DNA of 64,000 nucleotides from assembly GCA_005239175.1 (NCBI GenBank), contig SOPS01000001.1, forward strand, positions 124,001-188,000. Direction: 5' to 3'. Positions 6,630-20,446 of the stretch are shown piece after piece (position 1 is the stretch's first letter; the number at the start of each line of letters is the position of its first letter). The DNA comes from a halophilic archaeon SHRA6. Its GTDB lineage: Archaea; Halobacteriota; Halobacteria; Halobacteriales; Haloferacaceae. The translations under genes and the position numbers were made by a program. Below the pieces are notes generated by a model. It had not been told where the DNA came from, made no database searches, and saw only the letters and a program-made list of their open reading frames with translations.

Positions 6630-7397
6630 CTATCCGTGTTCGATCGACACCGTCCACTCGCCGCCGCTCTCGACGAGCAGGTAGCCGACGCCAGAGACCT
6701 GCTCGGTTCTGGTCTCGCCATCGACATCCGACTCTGTGGCGAACAGCCGGAGCCCGCTGTATTCGCCTGCACGATCGAAGACATCAACGAGGTGACCACC
6801 ACCGCCCGACGCAGAGAGGGTAAACTGCGTCTCCGCGTCGTCGGGGAACTCGATCGGCCCGAAAACATCGGTGAGGGTGCTCTCACGTTCGACTGGAGGT
6901 GACTCGCCGGTGTCGTACACCGGCAGTTCGGTGACATCGATCGTCCACTCGCCGTCAGCGATGACAGTAAGCTCGACAGTCTGGGGGTCGATCGAGTGGA
7001 TCGTTCGGCCGTCAAACGGACCGACAGCGTTGATTCCTGCAGCGAGGACCTCGCCCGCTGAATCGAGAACGCCGACGTTGAACCGTCCCTCGCCCTCGTG
7101 GTCGTATTCGGCGATGATCGGTCCGTCTGTGGAGAGCTCAAAGCTGTCTATCGATTGCGGATCGTCACTATCTGGATCGCCCGATCCAGAAAACGAGTGG
7201 GTGACCGGATTGGAGCCGTCGGTTTCGTAGTCAAATATCGCGTCGGCGTACGGTGGCCACGGCGGAGACTGAGAGTCCTCACCGCCGAGACAGCCTGCAA
7301 GCCCAGTGAGACCGGCGAGCGCACCACTCGAAAGTGCGAGGTACGATCGCCGATTGAGACGGGCCTGTGGGGATGATCTGTCCATACCTCGTCTCAT
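6630..7397 (-). CDS. Tat-exported lipoprotein of unknown function
   Basis: The 255-residue protein begins with a twin-arginine signal (NRRSYLALSSGALAG, near 16-30) and a lipobox LAGC, the usual haloarchaeal Tat-lipobox pattern, so it should be anchored outside the cell membrane. The rest is beta-rich with repeats of the type VELTVIADGEWTIDVTELPVYD and GYLLVESGGEWTVSIEHG, resembling haloarchaeal extracellular domains that end in W-T-hydrophobic strands. No enzyme motif is seen. An alternative ATG lies four codons into the frame. Confidence 0.8.
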   Translation of the reverse strand: MRRGMDRSSPQARLNRRSYLALSSGALAGLTGLAGCLGGEDSQSPPWPPYADAIFDYETDGSNPVTHSFSGSGDPDSDDPQSIDSFELSTDGPIIAEYDHEGEGRFNVGVLDSAGEVLAAGINAVGPFDGRTIHSIDPQTVELTVIADGEWTIDVTELPVYDTGESPPVERESTLTDVFGPIEFPDDAETQFTLSASGGGGHLVDVFDRAGEYSGLRLFATESDVDGETRTEQVSGVGYLLVESGGEWTVSIEHG

Positions 7398-7463: not shown

Positions 7464-8534
7464 CTACAGCGTGTCGGCAATCCGTTCGGCGATCCGGTGG
7501 GCTCCTTCAGCCGCCGCGAGGTCGGGTCGATCGGCGGTGACGACGCTCACATCGCGGGAGAGCTCTGCGGAGAGCCGCGCTTCAAACTCCTCGGCGATAC
7601 CCGGAATACACGCCATTCCGCCGGTCAGCGCGATCGGCTTGCCCAACGCGAGCTGATACGGCTTCATGTGGGTGTTCGCGAGCTCTGAGAGGAAGTTATT
7701 CGCAATCTCATCGACTGCCTCGTCAACGTACTCGTCAACGGGGTCCATGAGACCGCGGTTGACGGTAAACTCGTGGGAGCCGCCGCCGGGCTGTTGGATC
7801 ACGTCGGTGAACGGCTCGAAGTCAACAAATGAGGCGTGTTCCTCCTTGTACTCGCGAGCGGTGGTGAGATCGATGTTGACACGGCCCTGGGTTTCCTCTT
7901 CGACGGCGTTTGCGATCCGCCGATCGACTTCCGAGCCGGTGACTGCACCCGTCGAAAATGGGGCAAGCTGTTCGCCGTGACGATACGCACAGGCCTCGAG
8001 GTTCGTCGAACCCATGTTGATCGAAACAAAGACTTCGTCGATCGCCTCAAGCCCGTCGCCCATTGCCGGAATCGAACCACACAGTGATTCAGGGAAGCTC
8101 CGGATTGCCGCCTGGCCGATCGGGCTTCCCTCAATGACCTCGGTCAGATTTTCGAGCCCGGCTTCGTTGTCGATCGTTGGGATCGCATAAACAACGGCGC
8201 TGTCCTCGGGAATATTTTGTGCCCGAATAAGCTCGGTAAAGAATTTTGCGGCCAACTCCGCACGAGCATCGTCTTCGGGGAGGCCCGATCGAAGCATAAA
8301 CTCGACTGTATCGGGGTATTCTTGGGCGGCCTGCTCACCGTAGAGGACACGCTCGGTTCCCGTAATCGGATCATCGTACGTTGCGAGACAGGTGAGCGTC
8401 CGAATCGTGTCGGGCTCTCCGTCTCTGAGGAGCTGAATAACCGTCCGAGTGCTCCCGAGTTTGACACCGACCGGGGTTGGCTCGTCGCTACTATCTGTGC
8501 TGCCGTCGAACGCATCGTCATCTGTGTCTGACAT
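7464..8534 (-). CDS. actin-superfamily ATPase, salactin-like
   Basis: The 356-residue product has the actin/Hsp70/MreB nucleotide-binding pattern: phosphate-1 loop VGVKLGSTRTVIQLL (near 23), phosphate-2 loop EVFVSINMGSTNLEACAY (near 167) and adenosine motif IALTGGMACIPGIAEEF (near 302). An acidic disordered stretch precedes the core. Sequence style and size fit the haloarchaeal salactin group of filament-forming actins known from Halobacterium; the exact orthology needs a search. It lies 14 bases after a gene for an ArlD/E-domain protein and is probably cotranscribed with it, which hints at positioning of a motility or surface complex. Confidence 0.8.
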   Translation of the reverse strand: MSDTDDDAFDGSTDSSDEPTPVGVKLGSTRTVIQLLRDGEPDTIRTLTCLATYDDPITGTERVLYGEQAAQEYPDTVEFMLRSGLPEDDARAELAAKFFTELIRAQNIPEDSAVVYAIPTIDNEAGLENLTEVIEGSPIGQAAIRSFPESLCGSIPAMGDGLEAIDEVFVSINMGSTNLEACAYRHGEQLAPFSTGAVTGSEVDRRIANAVEEETQGRVNIDLTTAREYKEEHASFVDFEPFTDVIQQPGGGSHEFTVNRGLMDPVDEYVDEAVDEIANNFLSELANTHMKPYQLALGKPIALTGGMACIPGIAEEFEARLSAELSRDVSVVTADRPDLAAAEGAHRIAERIADTL

Positions 8535-8548
8535 GATATGGAAACGGG

Positions 8549-9001
8549 TTATGAAAGCGAGGCCAGTGTTGCGATGTATAGCAGGCTCAACCGATGATCG
8601 CCGACCTCAAAGGATCGACAGTGGACGGGTTCGGGCATCGAACCAATCTCACCCGCAATTGCGTGTTGGATCTCCGGTGCGATCCAGCCGAGTTCGCGGT
8701 AGTACCGCAGTGCGTCTCGTGCGGGGCTGTGTCCGCCGACGAGGGTGAGAAACTCAACCCAGTCGTACAGCAGCCGTCGACCAACGTCTGATCGGGGAGC
8801 CGATTGGAGATACGGCCGTTCGAGGTCCGCTGTCGCCCGGGCGGTCCGCAGTGACAACAGCTCACGGAACTGCTGGGCACGGATCGACTCTTCGGCGGTC
8901 AACCCGGGACCCGTCAGTTCCGACTCCGCTATTTCTGGTTCGGCGATGCCCGCCAGATTCCGGAGCTCAGTCGGATCGTACTCCCGTGGATTGACAACCA
9001 T
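8549..9001 (-). CDS. ArlD/ArlE (FlaD/E)-domain protein
   Basis: The 150-residue protein has a charged N-terminal half and a C-terminal domain matching the archaellum accessory ArlD/E module: PYLQSAPRSDVGRRLLYDW (near 64) then the helical core WVEFLTLVGGHSPARDALRYY and LGWIAPEI (residues 82-112). In canonical archaella such domains, in ArlC/D/E proteins, help form the cytoplasmic ring and connect to chemotaxis. No other archaellum gene is nearby. Being the first gene of a two-gene operon with an actin homologue is notable and suggests an adaptor between filament and a polar complex; this is inference. Confidence 0.72.
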   Translation of the reverse strand: MVVNPREYDPTELRNLAGIAEPEIAESELTGPGLTAEESIRAQQFRELLSLRTARATADLERPYLQSAPRSDVGRRLLYDWVEFLTLVGGHSPARDALRYYRELGWIAPEIQHAIAGEIGSMPEPVHCRSFEVGDHRLSLLYIATLASLS

Positions 9002-9117
9002 GCTATCGTATCGCAGTCTGTCCGTTTGCTCGCGTTGCCGCTACGGGGAGACAACTCACGGACAGGATATCAGTATTTTGGTACTGATCGATCGAGAGAG
9101 CGTTCTAATAGCCCGAT

Positions 9118-9849
9118 TCAGTCGAGCTCGAAGTTGATTCGCTCGTGCTCTGAGCCCTGGGTTTTCCGGCCAGTAACCGTGATTTCGCCGATCTCGCCAG
9201 TCGCCGAGACGTGCGTGCCTGCACAGGCAGTCCGATCGAGCGGCTCCTCATTCTCTCCGGCGATCTCGACGATTCGGAGATTGGTGATCGACGCCGGGAG
9301 GAGCGCGATTCGAGTTCGCTCGGGATCGAGTTCAGCCTCAGCGGTTTCTCGATCCATCGTGTACCACCGGACCTCGCGATCGTCTTCAACGAGGCCGTTG
9401 AGCGCAGTTTCAATGTCTGCGAGATCGGTTTCGGTAAAGCGATCGTACGCACAGTCGAGGTGTGCGTGATCGGCGTACAGCTGGTTACCAGTCGTTTCGG
9501 CGTCGTAGGCCGACAGGAGGTGCGCCGAGAGCAGGTGTTGTGCCGTGTGATACCGCATGTGCGCGTACCGACGAGGCCAGTCGAGTTCGCCGCGAACTGC
9601 CGTACCGGGTTCTGGGAGGTGATCTGGGCCGCTCACTGAATGGTAGATTTCGTCTTTCTTTTCGACAGCCGTGACCGTCCAGGTTCGATCGCCGTCGACC
9701 GTCTCGATCGTTCCGGTGTCGTGGGGCTGGCCGCCGCCAGTCGGATAAAAGTGGGTGGCGTTGAGCACGAGCCGATCAGACAACGTGCGCGCGACCGTCG
9801 CGTCGAACGATCGCACCGAACTGTTTTCGAAGTACAGCTGCTCGGTCAT
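9118..9849 (-). CDS. alaX: AlaX-type alanyl-tRNA editing protein
   Basis: A 243-residue trans-editing protein of the AlaX-M type. It has the N-terminal beta domain (NATHFYPTGGGQPHDTG, near 29) and the zinc-binding editing site HTAQHLLSAHLL (near 100) with CAGTHVSATGEIG (near 210). It hydrolyses Ser or Gly mischarged on tRNA-Ala. ATG at 9849 is chosen because the longer frame upstream reads as an Arg-rich non-acidic sequence. No alanyl-tRNA synthetase catalytic domain is present, so it is a free-standing editor. Confidence 0.9.
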   Translation of the reverse strand: MTEQLYFENSSVRSFDATVARTLSDRLVLNATHFYPTGGGQPHDTGTIETVDGDRTWTVTAVEKKDEIYHSVSGPDHLPEPGTAVRGELDWPRRYAHMRYHTAQHLLSAHLLSAYDAETTGNQLYADHAHLDCAYDRFTETDLADIETALNGLVEDDREVRWYTMDRETAEAELDPERTRIALLPASITNLRIVEIAGENEEPLDRTACAGTHVSATGEIGEITVTGRKTQGSEHERINFELD

Positions 9850-9979
9850 AGTCGACTTCAGGAGTGCGATCGGCTTACCGCTTCGGCTCGCGGCGATCAA
9901 ACGCGTTGTGAGCCACGCGCGTCGTTGGAGGTGTCGTAACGCATAAGATGCGAAGCGGCGTAAATCTCTGTAATGATAC

Positions 9980-10711
9980 ATGAGAATCGACGCGCCAGGG
10001 GGTGGCCCCGTGGGCGTTGAAATAAAAGAATCCGCCGTCACAGACGAGGCCTTCGCGGAGATGCAGCGGTTTGTCTACGACTATCTGACCGCGAGCGTCG
10101 AAAGCGAAGGCGACGGCGGCCGGATGCGGTGGTACCCCTGGCACAGCGCGGAGTACCGCTTCAACCACATCAGAAACGTCACCGAACTGGCGACCAAGAT
10201 TGCGAAAAAGGAGGGTGCAGATGTCGACGTCGTGCGGGTTGCCGCAGTCTTTCACGACGTTTCGAAGCTCGAGGCCGATCAGGAGACCCACGCAGAGGAG
10301 GGCGCGCGCGTCGCTCGCGAGTACCTCAACACCCATGGCGACTATCCGCAGTCGTTCATCGAGGAGGTATGTCAGACGATCGTCGACCACTCCTACCACG
10401 GCCCCCTCTCAGACGTGTCTCTCGAGAGCCAGTGTTTGATCGAGGCTGACGTGCTCGATAAGGTCGGCGCAAACGGCACGGCGCTGATGTTGCTCCGGAT
10501 GGGATACGAAGCCAGAACCCATATGGACGCGGCTGGGATGGTCGATCGCGTTCTCGAACGCGGGCGCGATCACGTCGATCGAATCGAATCCGATACTGCC
10601 GAGAGCATCGCCCACCAGCGGCTCAAACGCGTTCGGTGGTTCCGCGAGTGGCTCGAAGCAGAAGTCGTCGAGATGAACAGCGAACTGGACCGAGATCAAG
10701 ACATGCAATAA
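9980..10711 (+). CDS. HD-domain phosphohydrolase
   Basis: The 243-residue protein has the metal-binding HD signature: His in EYRFNHIRNV (near 62), HDVSK (near 91), further His in DHSYHGPLSD (near 136) and Asp in EADVLDKVGA (near 154). HD proteins cleave phosphomonoesters or cyclic and nucleoside phosphates; the substrate cannot be told from the sequence. C-terminal helices (VDRVLERGRDHVDRIES and on) complete the fold. It is convergent with the epimerase gene downstream. Confidence 0.85.
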   Translation: MRIDAPGGGPVGVEIKESAVTDEAFAEMQRFVYDYLTASVESEGDGGRMRWYPWHSAEYRFNHIRNVTELATKIAKKEGADVDVVRVAAVFHDVSKLEADQETHAEEGARVAREYLNTHGDYPQSFIEEVCQTIVDHSYHGPLSDVSLESQCLIEADVLDKVGANGTALMLLRMGYEARTHMDAAGMVDRVLERGRDHVDRIESDTAESIAHQRLKRVRWFREWLEAEVVEMNSELDRDQDMQ

Positions 10712-14934: not shown

Positions 14935-17900
14935 TCAGTCGTCGCCGGTCGACATCGCACTGGCGTCGACGCGGGCGTCGATCGACGTTTCAGCTGATTC
15001 GGGCAGTTCGTGACGCACATCTGCGCCGCGACCCTCTTCGATGACCTGTGCGTACGCATCTGGGAAGACCCGCACGAAGTGTTGGCGTTCGGTCTCCCAA
15101 GATTCCAGCAGTTGTTTTGCCTTTTTACTATCGGTGTACGTGGCGTGATTCTCGATCAACCGTGCGAGCATCGCTTCGTCTTTCTCGGTAAGCGTCTCCG
15201 AGAGCGATACCATCCCGGTGTTGAGCTTCGGCTCGAGTTCGCCGTCTGGATCGTAGACGTACGCGACACCGCCGGACATCCCGGCACCGAAGTTGCGGCC
15301 TGTCTCACCGAGTACCGCAACCGCGCCGCCGGTCATGTACTCACAGCCGTGGTCACCGACCCCTTCGACGACGGCTTTGACGCCGGAATTTCGAACGGCA
15401 AAGCGCTCGCCAGCGACGCCGTTGATGTATGCTTCACCCTGGGTCGCACCGTACAGCGCAACGTTGCCGATCAAGATGTTCTCGTCGGCCTCGTAGGCAG
15501 CGGTCTCGGGAGTGTTGATCACGAGTTTGCCGCCCGAAAGCCCCTTGCCGACGTAGTCGTTTGCCGCTCCGGTGAGCGACATCGTGACGCCATTTGCGAG
15601 GAACGCACCAAAGCTCTGTCCGGCGATCCCGTCGAAGTCGATCGCGATCGTGTCGTCGGCGAGCCCTTCGCCGCCGTATCGTTTCGAGATCTCGTTCGAG
15701 AGCATCGCGCCGGCCCCGCGATTGACGTTCGAAATGTCCGTTTTGATCGAGACTGGCGCGCCGTTGTCCAGCGCCGGGGCAGCCTTCTCGATCAAGTCGT
15801 GATCGAGATGTGTCTCGATATCGGCGTGGTGTTGCTCTCTGACTTTGATCCGCTGTTCGCCAGCGGTTTCGGCAATGACCGTCGAGAGGTCGAGGTGTTT
15901 GGCCTTCTCGTGGTCCGTGATTCGCTGGCTGAGCAGTTCGGGCCGACCGATCATCTCGTCAAGACTGGTGAAGCCCAGTTCAGCCATGATCTCGCGAAGC
16001 TCCTGTGCGATGAACGTCATGTAGTTGATGACGTGAGCTGGCTGGCCGGGGAACCGCTCGCGGAGATCCTCGTTTTGTGTTGCAACGCCAACTGGACAGG
16101 TGTTCGCGTGGCACTGTCGGGCCATTACACAGCCAGCGGTGACGAGCGAAGCTGTCCCGAAGCCGTACTCCTCGGCACCGAGCAGCGCGGCGATCGCCAC
16201 GTCTCGACCCGTCTTCATTCCGCCGTCGACGGTGACGCGGATGCGATCGCGAAGCCGTGTCGCACACAGCATCTGGTTGGCCTCTGCGAGGCCGAGTTCC
16301 CACGGCAGGCCGGCGTTCTTAATCGAGGTCTTCGGCGATGCGCCCGTCCCGCCGCTGTGTCCTGAGATGTGGACGACGTCGGCATTGGCCTTCGCGACAC
16401 CGGCGGCGATCGTCCCGATACCCGCCTCGGAGACGAGCTTCACGTTGATGTCTGCCTCAGGATTTGCAGCCTTCAGGTCGTGGATGAGCTGTTTGAGATC
16501 CTCGATCGAGTAGATATCGTGCAGCGGCGGCGGCGAGATGAGCCCGACGCCCGGCGTCGCATACCGGACGTGTGCGATCATCTCGTTGACCTTTCGGCCT
16601 GGCAGGTGACCACCTTCGCCGGGCTTCGATCCCTGGGCCATCTTGATCTGAATCTCATCCGCGGAGGTGAGGTACTCCGAGGTCACGCCGAAACGTCCCG
16701 ACGCGACCTGTTTGACACTGCACTCTTTTTCAGTCCCGAATCGCTCTGGGGGTTCGCCGCCCTCGCCGGTGTTTGACTTCCCGCCAAGGCGGTTCATCGC
16801 CATCGAGTTGTTCTCGTGGGCCTCCGGTGAGATGCTGCCGAGACTCATCGCGGCCGTCGTGAACCGAGAGACGATGTCTTCTACCGGTTCGACCTCCTCA
16901 ACGGGGACCGACGTACGATCGGAGTCGAATTCCAACAGCCCGCGGAGCGTCTGGAGGTTCTCATTTTGCTCGTTGATCAACGCGGCAAACTCCTTATAGC
17001 GCCCGTAGTCGCCCGATCGGACCGCCTGCTGGAGCGTGCCGACAGTCTTTGGATTCCACTGGTGGTAGATTCCTTTGGTGCGGTGTTCGTACTCACCCTG
17101 GGTTTCGAGATCGGGATCCGCACCGAAGCCAATCGCGTGGCGCGTCCGAAGATCAGATTCGAGCTGTTCGAGGCCGATCCCCTCAGTGCGAATCTCAGTG
17201 CCCTCGAAGTACTCCGAGACGAGCCCCGAATCGAGCCCGACAGCCTCGAAGATCTGTGCGCCCTGATAGGACTCGACCGTCGAGATTCCCATCTTGGCCA
17301 TGATCTTCAAGAGGCCGTGTTCGAGCGCGTGGATGTACGACTCGATCGCTTCGCTCTCGTCGGCACCATCCGGACCGGCGACGAGGTCGCCGATCGTCTG
17401 GTAGGCGAGATACGGGTTCACGCCGCCAGCACCGTAGCCGACGAGCGTCGCGATATGGTGAACCTCCCGTGGATCGCCGGATTCGACGACGAGCCCGACG
17501 TCCGTTCTGAGCCCGTGGCGAACCAGGTCGTGATGGACTGCACCAGTTGCCAACAGACTTGGAATCGCGATTCGATCGGTGTCGATATCGCGATCGGACA
17601 GAACAATGATGTCCGCGCCCGCGTCGATTTCCGCGCGAACCGACTCGCGAAGCGATTCAACCGCGGTCTCGAGATCGTCCTCGGGATCGTACGTCATCGA
17701 CACCGTCGCGCTCTCGAAGCCGTCGACCTGCCGTGAGAGGCCCTTGATTGAGGCCGTCTCCTCGTCGGTGAGGATCGGAGAGTCAAGCACAAGCTGCCGG
17801 GCGTGTTCTGGCGTTTCGTCGAGGAGGTTTCGCTGCGCGCCGAGTCGCGATTGGAGGCTCGTCACCAGCTCTTCGCGGATATAGTCGATCGGCGGGTTCG

Positions 17901-19485
17901 ACACCTGTGCGAACAGCTGTTTGAAGTATGTAAACAGTGGCCGATTGAACTCAGAAAGCACCGAAAGCGGCGTGTCGTCGCCCATCGAGCCGATCGGGTC
18001 CTTTCCATCTGTCGCCATGGGTTCGAGCAGGTGGTTCAGCTGGTCAGTTGTGTAGCCGAACGCAGCCTGATGTGCCCGCAGCGAGTCGACTTCTCCCTGT
18101 GGAAGCTTGCTGTCTCCAGCAACCTCCTCGAGTGATGCTTGGTATTCGTCGACCCACTCACCGTATGAGTCCTCAAGGAGTCCATCAAACACCTCCTCGT
18201 CAGGGATGACGCGGCCTTCCTCGGGGTCGGCCATGAAAATCTGCCCAGGCTTGAGGCGACCGCGCTCTTCGATCTCGCTCGGGTCGGTGTCGAGTGCGCC
18301 CGCCTCGCTGGCGAGAATCAACCGACCGTCAGTCGTCACGTCGTAGCGACACGGCCGGAGGCCGTTACGATCGAGTACCGCCGCGACCGCGTCTCCGTCA
18401 GTCGCAGCGACGAGAGCAGGGCCGTCCCACGGTTCGACGAGGCTCGCGTGGTAGTCGTACCACTCGCGGCGGGCGTCGTCCATGAGCTCGTCGTTTTCGT
18501 AAGCCTCTGGGATCAACATCCGAAGAACGTGCGGGAGCTCTCGACCAGCGTTCAACAGTAACTCGACAACGTTGTCCACGCTGGCAGTGTCAGATTGGTC
18601 GGCGATCGTGATCGGTTTGAGCGTGTCAATCTCCTCGCCGAACGCCTCGTGTTCGAGTGCCGATTCGCGGGCGCGCATCCAGTTGACGTTCCCCTGAATC
18701 GTGTTGATTTCGCCGTTGTGGATGATCTTGCGGTACGGGTGTGCAAGGTGCCAGGCTCCGAGTGTGTTTGTGGAGAACCGCGCGTGAACGAGGACAAGTT
18801 CGCTTTTGACACGTTCGTCCTGCAAATCGAGATAGTACTCTCGGAGCTGCTCACCTTTGAGTAGGCCCTTGTAGACGAGTGTTTTGCGGTCAAGTGAACA
18901 GACGTAGAACCGGCCCGACCCCTCGATCGTTTCGGCGGCGTGTTCGAGCGCTCGCCGGCCGACGTACAGCGCGCGATCGAACGCTTCGATGTCCATTGAA
19001 TCTTCGACGGGCGCGACGAACGGCTGACAGACAACCGGCTCAGAGTCGAGGGCCGTTCGCCCGAGATCCGCATCGCCGGTCGGAACCGTCCGCCAGTGGA
19101 ACACTTCAAGGCCGTATTCTGCCAGCGTCGATTCAAAACAGTCGATGAGGTCCGCCCGGACTGCATCGTCGGTCGGCATGAATACCGAGCCGACAGCGTA
19201 CGTCTCAGGAATCTCACCAACTTCGTCAGCAAAGAACTCGTCTGGGCGCTGGATCATAATGCCTGCGCCATCGCCGGTGTTTTCCTCTGCGCCGGTGGTT
19301 CCTCGATGTTCGAGATTTTCGAGCAGATCGATCGCGTCGGAGACGACTGAATGTGACGGGCCGTTCTCAAGGTCGATGACCGCACCGACGCCGCAGTTCG
19401 ATCGATCGTCGGTTGGGTCCGCGAGGCCATGCGTCGGCTCCGCTACAGAGCCCGATACATGGGTATCACTGTGTGGCTTGGTCAT
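14935..19485 (-). CDS. gltB: glutamate synthase large subunit
   Basis: This 1516-residue enzyme makes two glutamates from 2-oxoglutarate and glutamine. A short propeptide ends before the nucleophilic Cys in SNCGVGAVID (near 32), which should become the mature N terminus of the glutaminase domain. It is followed by the central domain, the FMN-binding TIM-barrel region (GGKSNTGEGGEPPERF near 880 and HSGGTGASPKTSIKNAGLPW) and the 3Fe-4S ligands CVMARQCHANTC (C-x5-C-x4-C). The C-terminal glycine-rich GltB beta helix (residues about 1250-1450) completes it. ATG at 19485 is favoured because upstream codons are non-acidic and overlap the promoter. No small subunit gene is adjacent, so ferredoxin or a distant GltD may donate electrons. 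Confidence 0.95.
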   Translation of the reverse strand: MTKPHSDTHVSGSVAEPTHGLADPTDDRSNCGVGAVIDLENGPSHSVVSDAIDLLENLEHRGTTGAEENTGDGAGIMIQRPDEFFADEVGEIPETYAVGSVFMPTDDAVRADLIDCFESTLAEYGLEVFHWRTVPTGDADLGRTALDSEPVVCQPFVAPVEDSMDIEAFDRALYVGRRALEHAAETIEGSGRFYVCSLDRKTLVYKGLLKGEQLREYYLDLQDERVKSELVLVHARFSTNTLGAWHLAHPYRKIIHNGEINTIQGNVNWMRARESALEHEAFGEEIDTLKPITIADQSDTASVDNVVELLLNAGRELPHVLRMLIPEAYENDELMDDARREWYDYHASLVEPWDGPALVAATDGDAVAAVLDRNGLRPCRYDVTTDGRLILASEAGALDTDPSEIEERGRLKPGQIFMADPEEGRVIPDEEVFDGLLEDSYGEWVDEYQASLEEVAGDSKLPQGEVDSLRAHQAAFGYTTDQLNHLLEPMATDGKDPIGSMGDDTPLSVLSEFNRPLFTYFKQLFAQVSNPPIDYIREELVTSLQSRLGAQRNLLDETPEHARQLVLDSPILTDEETASIKGLSRQVDGFESATVSMTYDPEDDLETAVESLRESVRAEIDAGADIIVLSDRDIDTDRIAIPSLLATGAVHHDLVRHGLRTDVGLVVESGDPREVHHIATLVGYGAGGVNPYLAYQTIGDLVAGPDGADESEAIESYIHALEHGLLKIMAKMGISTVESYQGAQIFEAVGLDSGLVSEYFEGTEIRTEGIGLEQLESDLRTRHAIGFGADPDLETQGEYEHRTKGIYHQWNPKTVGTLQQAVRSGDYGRYKEFAALINEQNENLQTLRGLLEFDSDRTSVPVEEVEPVEDIVSRFTTAAMSLGSISPEAHENNSMAMNRLGGKSNTGEGGEPPERFGTEKECSVKQVASGRFGVTSEYLTSADEIQIKMAQGSKPGEGGHLPGRKVNEMIAHVRYATPGVGLISPPPLHDIYSIEDLKQLIHDLKAANPEADINVKLVSEAGIGTIAAGVAKANADVVHISGHSGGTGASPKTSIKNAGLPWELGLAEANQMLCATRLRDRIRVTVDGGMKTGRDVAIAALLGAEEYGFGTASLVTAGCVMARQCHANTCPVGVATQNEDLRERFPGQPAHVINYMTFIAQELREIMAELGFTSLDEMIGRPELLSQRITDHEKAKHLDLSTVIAETAGEQRIKVREQHHADIETHLDHDLIEKAAPALDNGAPVSIKTDISNVNRGAGAMLSNEISKRYGGEGLADDTIAIDFDGIAGQSFGAFLANGVTMSLTGAANDYVGKGLSGGKLVINTPETAAYEADENILIGNVALYGATQGEAYINGVAGERFAVRNSGVKAVVEGVGDHGCEYMTGGAVAVLGETGRNFGAGMSGGVAYVYDPDGELEPKLNTGMVSLSETLTEKDEAMLARLIENHATYTDSKKAKQLLESWETERQHFVRVFPDAYAQVIEEGRGADVRHELPESAETSIDARVDASAMSTGDD

Positions 19486-19498
19486 GTGTATTTTCTTC

Positions 19499-19563
19499 GT
19501 ATACCCAAATAAAGCGTTGACCCTGAAAGGATAATGGTTCATAAGACACATATTAGGGTATAC
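19499..19563 (-). promoter_or_regulatory. paired 13-base inverted repeat over the gltB promoter
   Basis: GTATACCCAAATA (19499-19511) and TATTAGGGTATAC (19551-19563) are inverted copies with one mismatch, 52 bases centre to centre, about five helical turns. The proximal copy overlaps the probable TATA element of gltB (TTTATTTG, complement of 19508-19515), about 25 bases before its ATG. This suggests cooperative binding of a regulator, for example an Lrp-type or nitrogen regulator; the protein is not identified. Confidence 0.6.
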
Positions 19564-19681
19564 AAGGTAATTGATCATAATGGGATTGTTAGTATGTCGC
19601 GCAATCAATCGTGAATAATGTAGCGTAACCAGAGCATAGCGAGTCGGTGACGTTTTTATTTCTGCTGCCCGCAGGTAGTGT

Positions 19682-20446
19682 GTGCGCATTGAGAACAGTT
19701 TCATTCCGGTTCGCGGCGTCGGCGAACGGACCGAGCGAGGGCTCTGGGAGCAGGGGATCACAACCTGGGACGCGTTCGATCGCGCTGCCGTTGGGAAAAC
19801 GACGGGCCAGCGGATTGAGTCGTTCATCGAAGAGGCAAGCACGCGGCTCGATCGGCGAGACACACAGTACTTCGATACCGTCTTTCCAAGCAGCGAGCGG
19901 TGGCGACTCTACGAGAATTTCAGGGACAAGGCGTGTTTTTTTGATATCGAGACAACGGGTCTCGATTCGGCTCGCAATGTCGTCACGACGGTTAGCTACT
20001 ACCTCGACGGCGAGACGCGGACGCTCGTCCGTGGCGATACCCTGACCGCCGACGCGCTTCGGGCCGCCTTCGCAGATGCAGATCTACTCGTGAGTTTCAA
20101 CGGTATTCGGTTCGATCAACCCTTCTTAGAGGACTGTTTCGACCTGTCGATCGACACCCCACACCTCGATCTGATGTACCCGTGCAAACAACTCGGGCTA
20201 TCGGGCGGGCTGAAAGCGATCGAATCCGAGATCGGTATTGAGCGCGATCGGCCGGATATTTCAGGACGAGACGCGGTCCGGCTGTGGCACGAATACGAAC
20301 GGGGGCGCGATGGGTCGCTTGAAACGTTGATCTCGTACAACCGTGAGGACGCAGTGAACCTCCAGCAACTGACTGATATTGTTACCCAACAGCTCCACCA
20401 GAATGTTTTCGAACAGTATCGATCGACGGCTAGCCAGTCGGTGTAG
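19682..20446 (+). CDS. RNase H-fold 3'-5' exonuclease-like protein
   Basis: The 254-residue protein carries the DnaQ-like exonuclease motifs: FFDIETTGLD (Exo I, near 86), VSFNGIRFDQPFL (Exo II, near 138) and YNREDAVNL (Exo III, near 219). The N-terminal 60 residues contain helix-hairpin-helix-like GVGERTERGLWEQG. The layout matches YprB/RNase_H_2 type exonucleases. It starts with GTG and overlaps the 3' end of the convergent bactofilin-like gene by 17 bases. A role in DNA repair or RNA trimming is plausible. Confidence 0.85.
   Translation: MRIENSFIPVRGVGERTERGLWEQGITTWDAFDRAAVGKTTGQRIESFIEEASTRLDRRDTQYFDTVFPSSERWRLYENFRDKACFFDIETTGLDSARNVVTTVSYYLDGETRTLVRGDTLTADALRAAFADADLLVSFNGIRFDQPFLEDCFDLSIDTPHLDLMYPCKQLGLSGGLKAIESEIGIERDRPDISGRDAVRLWHEYERGRDGSLETLISYNREDAVNLQQLTDIVTQQLHQNVFEQYRSTASQSV

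Follow-up and report, generated by a model that had tools for sequence, protein, structure and literature searches.

Does the haloarchaeal actin salactin have a partner, and does that partner tie it to the archaellum? The question is raised by two adjacent genes in a 64,000-nucleotide stretch of the genome of the halophilic archaeon SHRA6 (contig SOPS01000001.1, positions 124,001–188,000), hereafter called the window. It had been predicted that a salactin-like actin gene lies there 14 bases from a gene for a 150-residue protein with an ArlD/E domain, and the pairing was taken to suggest that an actin filament system is tied to the placement of the archaellum or of another polar machine. Profile searches bear out both identities. 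The actin matches Pfam family PF25229 (Salactin) with an E-value of 4.8e-182 and 605 bits (cut-off 27.1) and passes the NCBIfam salactin equivalog NF053533 with 591 bits (cut-off 400). The small protein matches PF04659 (Arch_fla_DE) with an E-value of 7e-15 and 55 bits (cut-off 21), and this is the sole family found in it by the Pfam and NCBIfam search. The spacing is also as predicted and, as both genes are on the minus strand, the ArlD/E gene is the upstream one and salactin the downstream one (Table 1). The gene before the pair (9118–10041) encodes an AlaX-like editing protein, and the product of the gene after it (6630–7397) has no Pfam or NCBIfam family at an E-value of 1. Elsewhere in the window, a glutamate synthase large subunit of 1642 aa is encoded at 14935–19863, and a tRNA-Gln (TTG) call at 1348–1420 overlaps an ORF of the other strand (756–1682).

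Table 1. Features of the arlD-salactin locus, in window coordinates.
Feature	Position	Strand	Remarks
Salactin, actin homologue, 356 aa	7464..8534	-	Charged N-terminal tail, residues 1-18; actin-type body, residues 19-352
14-base spacer, arlD to salactin	8535..8548	-	Same in a congener (L131)
ArlD (archaellum protein, ArlD/E domain), 150 aa	8549..9001	-	Upstream gene of the pair
ArlD/E domain (Pfam PF04659)	8561..8821	-	ArlD residues 61-147; predicted all-helical
ArlD conserved N-terminal motif	8960..9001	-	Residues 1-14; consensus M-x-I/L/V-N/D-P-R-x-Y-D-x-x-E-L-R
Block upstream of arlD, with TATA-like stretch and inverted repeat	9055..9090	-	Probable single operon promoter

The best identification of the small protein is ArlD itself, of which this would be the genome's only copy. 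Two ArlD/E-domain proteins only are encoded in the genome, the window product and ArlCE, in which the domain is joined to a FlaC part that the window product does not have. The archaellum cluster is on this contig too, at a distance of about 0.95 Mb; it comprises ArlCE, F, G, H, I and J, together with CheD, a CheC-like protein and archaellins, with no ArlD within it. A profile built from salactin-linked ArlD/E proteins matches the gene directly before ArlCE-F-G-H-I-J in three Halobacteriaceae genomes (L038, L039, L044), where the matched genes share the N-terminal motif of the window protein; the gene at that place is matched in all five named Halobacterium loci, H. salinarum DSM 3754 included. 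As the Halobacterium gene is ArlD by its position and the motif is shared, the window protein is best assigned to ArlD. The original prediction had also held that no archaellum gene is near, which is right for the rest of the neighborhood and wrong for the small gene, best read as an archaellum gene in its own right. That the motif-bearing counterpart is the ArlD of the Halobacterium archaellum operon also rules out a new ArlD/E paralogue.

The ArlD/FlaD proteins of Haloferax volcanii and H. salinarum (PMC6509185, PMC2666748) have the same domain and N-terminal motif, and Haloferax species likewise have a salactin gene after ArlD. By comparison, the window protein is divergent and its gene is not part of the archaellum cluster, where ArlD is found in Haloferax, Halobellus, Halogeometricum and Halobacterium; that location is a usual feature of ArlD, not a defining one. 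Identity of the window ArlD to the other rows of alignment A3 is 30–40%, and its branch has a length of 2.8 in an ArlD/E-domain tree that is too poorly resolved (92 columns, long branches) to place it firmly with known ArlD or with ArlCE and in which some labels come from a crude motif rule, wrong for L037, L040, L050 and L051. Its structure model has a pLDDT of 72 and gave no match in the PDB by fold search at an E-value of 0.001; by sequence, the best PDB hit had an E-value of 0.82. The motif was also considered as a docking site for salactin. It is kept in ArlD of genomes with no salactin (e.g., L054) and is therefore not a salactin-specific docking site.

In a congener of the window's genome (G199), both the 14-base spacer and the 36-base block upstream of arlD are identical to those of the window, while the sequence farther upstream has diverged. 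As spacer and block are both kept, we infer from these sequences that the pair is probably transcribed from a single promoter ahead of arlD, with no further one in the spacer. The block holds an inverted repeat, ATCAGTA-N6-TACTGAT (9069–9088), about 68 bases ahead of the start codon of arlD, which is kept in the congener and is a possible operator. In H. volcanii, a regulatory study names "ArlD/HVO_1202" as one transcription unit, raised in a csmR deletion that also raises other archaellum and chemotaxis units (PMC13286277). HVO_1202 is not called an actin in the passages on this unit; judging from gene order in eight other Haloferax species, it is probably a salactin homologue, and the H. volcanii control genome contains a PF25229 match. 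The conserved block and spacer and the joint rise with archaellum and chemotaxis units would also be expected if arlD and salactin were co-expressed for a motile, dividing rod phase, with no contact between their products. We consider such shared regulation alone unlikely: it leaves unexplained both why, in most genera, the two genes stay together at a distance from the archaellum cluster and why ArlD alone among archaellum proteins stays with salactin in genomes that have no archaellum.

A neighborhood survey for a conserved ArlD/E partner had been proposed as one check on the prediction, which a failed ArlD/E profile search or a pairing confined to this genome was to overturn. The profile match holds, and the pairing proved to be conserved far outside the window's genome. 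Among 391 haloarchaeal genomes, drawn from a larger group, salactin is present in 186, and the positions of the pair cover all of these. ArlD lies directly upstream of salactin in 156 of the 186, adjacency meaning the same strand and at most 600 bases between matched stretches (154 by position, plus G021 and G075 after reading of their loci, L128 and L047). In the other 30, the two genes adjoin in a different arrangement or at a slightly greater distance (four genomes), lie within 10 kb of each other (two) or elsewhere (23), and one genome, G379, has a broken salactin and no ArlD. Counted by genus, adjacency is found in 29 of the 33 salactin-bearing genera, the exceptions being Halobacterium (g26), g53, g56 and g66. 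This conservation exceeds chance. In Halobacterium the two genes are far apart, and the H. salinarum salactin paper reports poor synteny and DNA-repair genes nearby (PMC10746226). The split in precisely the genus of the salactin work may explain that published "poor synteny." We found no description of the pairing in the literature searched, most subscription papers and all preprints being outside its scope.

Such an order might also have been inherited and seldom broken, with no present function. Vertical inheritance accounts for part of the adjacency within families, and the pair has been broken, at no known cost, in Halobacterium and in some Haloarculaceae. It is kept across two families, however, and no other cluster that includes the window is common to at least three of the 12 genera compared, a comparison made by crude six-frame ORF tiling and muddied by antisense frames. 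Mere ancestral linkage also has to contend with the renewed association of salactin with archaellum genes in Halovenus, where ArlD is not involved, and with the joint retention of ArlD and salactin after loss of the archaellum (both described below). We regard it as very unlikely.

The pair also lies repeatedly among archaellum genes. In 60 named loci gathered with ArlD as the query, and hence not a salactin survey, salactin adjoins ArlD in 47 (one is cut by a contig end). The pair sits inside an archaellum-chemotaxis cluster in 14 of the 60, all from Haloferax, Halogeometricum or Halobellus, in the order CheC-like, CheD, ArlD, salactin. Salactin is at most 20 kb from FlaC in 27 of the 117 genomes for which both places are listed. 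In two Halovenus genomes (L132:4369–13524; L133:5348–13854), two salactin genes each are found inside the archaellum motor operon, which reads on one strand CheC, CheD, ArlCE, ArlF, ArlG, salactin, ArlCE, ArlH, salactin, ArlCE, ArlH (this second ArlH being seen in L132), ArlI, ArlJ. Both salactins, both ArlH, ArlF and ArlG of L132 score above their NCBIfam cut-offs. With three ArlCE and two salactin copies, the operon looks like the product of repeated duplication of an ArlCE-ArlH-salactin unit. On the salactin tree, the label "in archaellum cluster" requires at least five changes, three of them forced by well-supported branches, as counted by a quick method. As a side observation, in one Haloferax locus another small protein with an ArlD/E domain, which forms its own clade, is encoded about 2.5 kb beyond salactin (L106:14255–14710). 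Genome context strongly supports a link of salactin with the archaellum, through the pair in archaellum-chemotaxis clusters, salactin in the motor operon and the ArlD/HVO_1202 unit; the interpretation offered with the prediction is partly supported.

FlaC is found in 177 of the 186 genomes with salactin and in 126 of the 205 without it, Fisher values being uncorrected for kinship; as 126 of the 303 FlaC-positive genomes have no salactin, it is dispensable for archaella. Within five genera of mixed state, an intact salactin gene occurs in 66 of 72 archaellated and in 2 of 8 non-archaellated genomes, with losses mostly judged by FlaC alone and with three of the six salactin-less genomes, in g3, possibly reflecting one deletion of a shared cluster. 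Eight of the 88 FlaC-negative genomes have ArlD, by profile A1 at an E-value of 1e-15, with which a divergent ArlD could be missed. All eight also have salactin. ArlD alone is found in none of the 88, salactin fragments alone in one (G379) and neither gene in 79. Of the eight, G186 is archaellated (ArlJ, archaellins); in G182, G276, G337, G360, G351 and G334 neither an archaellin nor ArlJ was matched, and in G289 the single archaellin contains internal stop codons and the ArlJ-like match is only weak. The pair is therefore retained in seven archaellum-less genomes, which represent three genus-level groups (g13, g69, g37) rather than seven independent events. As ArlD in FlaC-negative genomes is always accompanied by salactin, its survival after loss of the archaellum is confined to genomes in which salactin survives too. 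A strict one-to-one link between salactin and swimming, also considered, is contradicted by these genomes. Four archaellum-less genomes of genus g69 (G182, G276, G337, G360) each contain between two and five salactin matches, of which one adjoins ArlD.

Phenotypes reported for the H. salinarum salactin deletion are motility with no statistical difference, normal shape in rich medium and, at low phosphate, a disturbed distribution or partition of DNA (PMC10746226). The part of the prediction that concerned placement of the archaellum gains no such support: this mutant swims normally, many archaellated genomes are without salactin, and the pair occurs in archaellum-less genomes.

Plasmid segregation by ParM and ParR relies on a dynamically unstable actin and a small partner encoded alongside. 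By analogy, with an actin and a small adjoining partner gene, ArlD might have a second role, unconnected with the archaellum, as salactin's general adaptor, and the pair might be a segregation module with ArlD acting as ParR does to ParM, the archaellum merely sharing the adaptor. The seven archaellum-less genomes that retain both genes and the mutant's DNA-partition phenotype with normal motility speak for such a module. This reading is nonetheless quite improbable in our judgment: the pair, or salactin alone, has repeatedly been found inside the archaellum cluster, and in the mixed genera intact salactin goes with archaella (with the limits on loss calls given above). The order in the window, partner then actin, differs from that of ParM/ParR; the partner carries an archaellum domain, PF04659 being the only one found in it, and no DNA-binding domain is recognized in it by Pfam or NCBIfam.

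Homologs of salactin occur in 21 non-haloarchaeal genomes among 324. At the 12 such loci read, no ArlD/E match was obtained with haloarchaeal profiles, which could miss distant ones, and an extension of the salactin-ArlD pair beyond haloarchaea was rejected on these grounds. In family f15, which we take to be Archaeoglobaceae, salactin is found with a coiled-coil protein and a MinD-like ATPase in five of six loci (L120, L121, L125, L126, L127), the sixth, L122, ending at a contig end; at one f15 locus, genes resembling ArlI and ArlJ lie upstream as well. In family f19, presumably Methanocellaceae, salactin is followed by a preflagellin-peptidase-like gene in three of four loci.

In H. salinarum, the one species for which this behavior is known, salactin filaments grow and shrink out of the cell poles and are dynamically unstable (PMC10746226). 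In H. volcanii, two papers describe ArlD foci at the cell poles and non-motile arlD mutants (PMC6509185, PMC11588486), arlD being required there both for archaella and for swimming. Our preferred reading, to which we assign a probability of roughly 0.45, is that arlD and salactin form a conserved operon in which ArlD serves salactin as a partner at the pole and attaches the dynamic filaments to this site and to its motor. ArlD would then contact salactin and anchor its filaments, linking them to the cell pole, and the filaments would need ArlD rather than the archaella needing the filaments, an order of dependence that fits normal motility without salactin and the archaellated genomes that lack it.

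Against this preferred reading we count that the salactin mutant swims normally, that 126 of 303 FlaC-positive genomes have no salactin and that the pair occurs in archaellum-less genomes. We also count against it the split pair of Halobacterium, the motif kept without salactin, and the poorly resolved ArlD/E tree with its long window branch. As to what might be moved, a bolder version, possible but doubtful, would make salactin an archaellum-linked cytoskeleton, with ArlD at the base of the polar motor as a filament-organizing center, much as the basal body is for microtubules. Unstable filaments growing from it would hold or partition both motors and chromosomes at division, the DNA-segregation phenotype would be one output of a system that organizes the pole, and the partner would have been hidden because Halobacterium, the model genus, is among the few that have the two genes apart.

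Among the closest known systems is salactin of H. salinarum (VNG0153C; PMC10746226), of the same family at equivalog level and likewise with a charged N-terminal tail. The window copy follows ArlD, as in most salactin-bearing genomes, whereas the Halobacterium copy does not. Volactin of H. volcanii (HVO_2015; PMC10869688) is also a dynamic haloarchaeal actin, but belongs to a different Pfam family, against which the window protein scores only 27 bits, below the Volactin cut-off. MinD2 and MinD4 (PMC11588486) likewise place ArlD and chemosensory arrays at the poles, and a MinD-like ATPase is encoded next to salactin in family f15; MinD, however, is a P-loop ATPase and not an actin, and none of the genes flanking the pair in the window was identified as MinD.

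The published context of salactin pointed to DNA repair and offered no partner, whereas the present survey finds one in nearly all salactin-bearing haloarchaeal genera. That partner, a motor protein of known polar localization, is a concrete candidate for the factor that keeps salactin at the pole. The question can be tested in the genetically tractable H. volcanii, where ArlD/HVO_1202 is reported as one transcription unit (PMC13286277). If the preferred reading is true, salactin would be the first actin tied to the archaellum, as far as the literature found shows. The position of salactin behind ArlD in most species examined suggests that the cell skeleton and the polar swimming motor work together.
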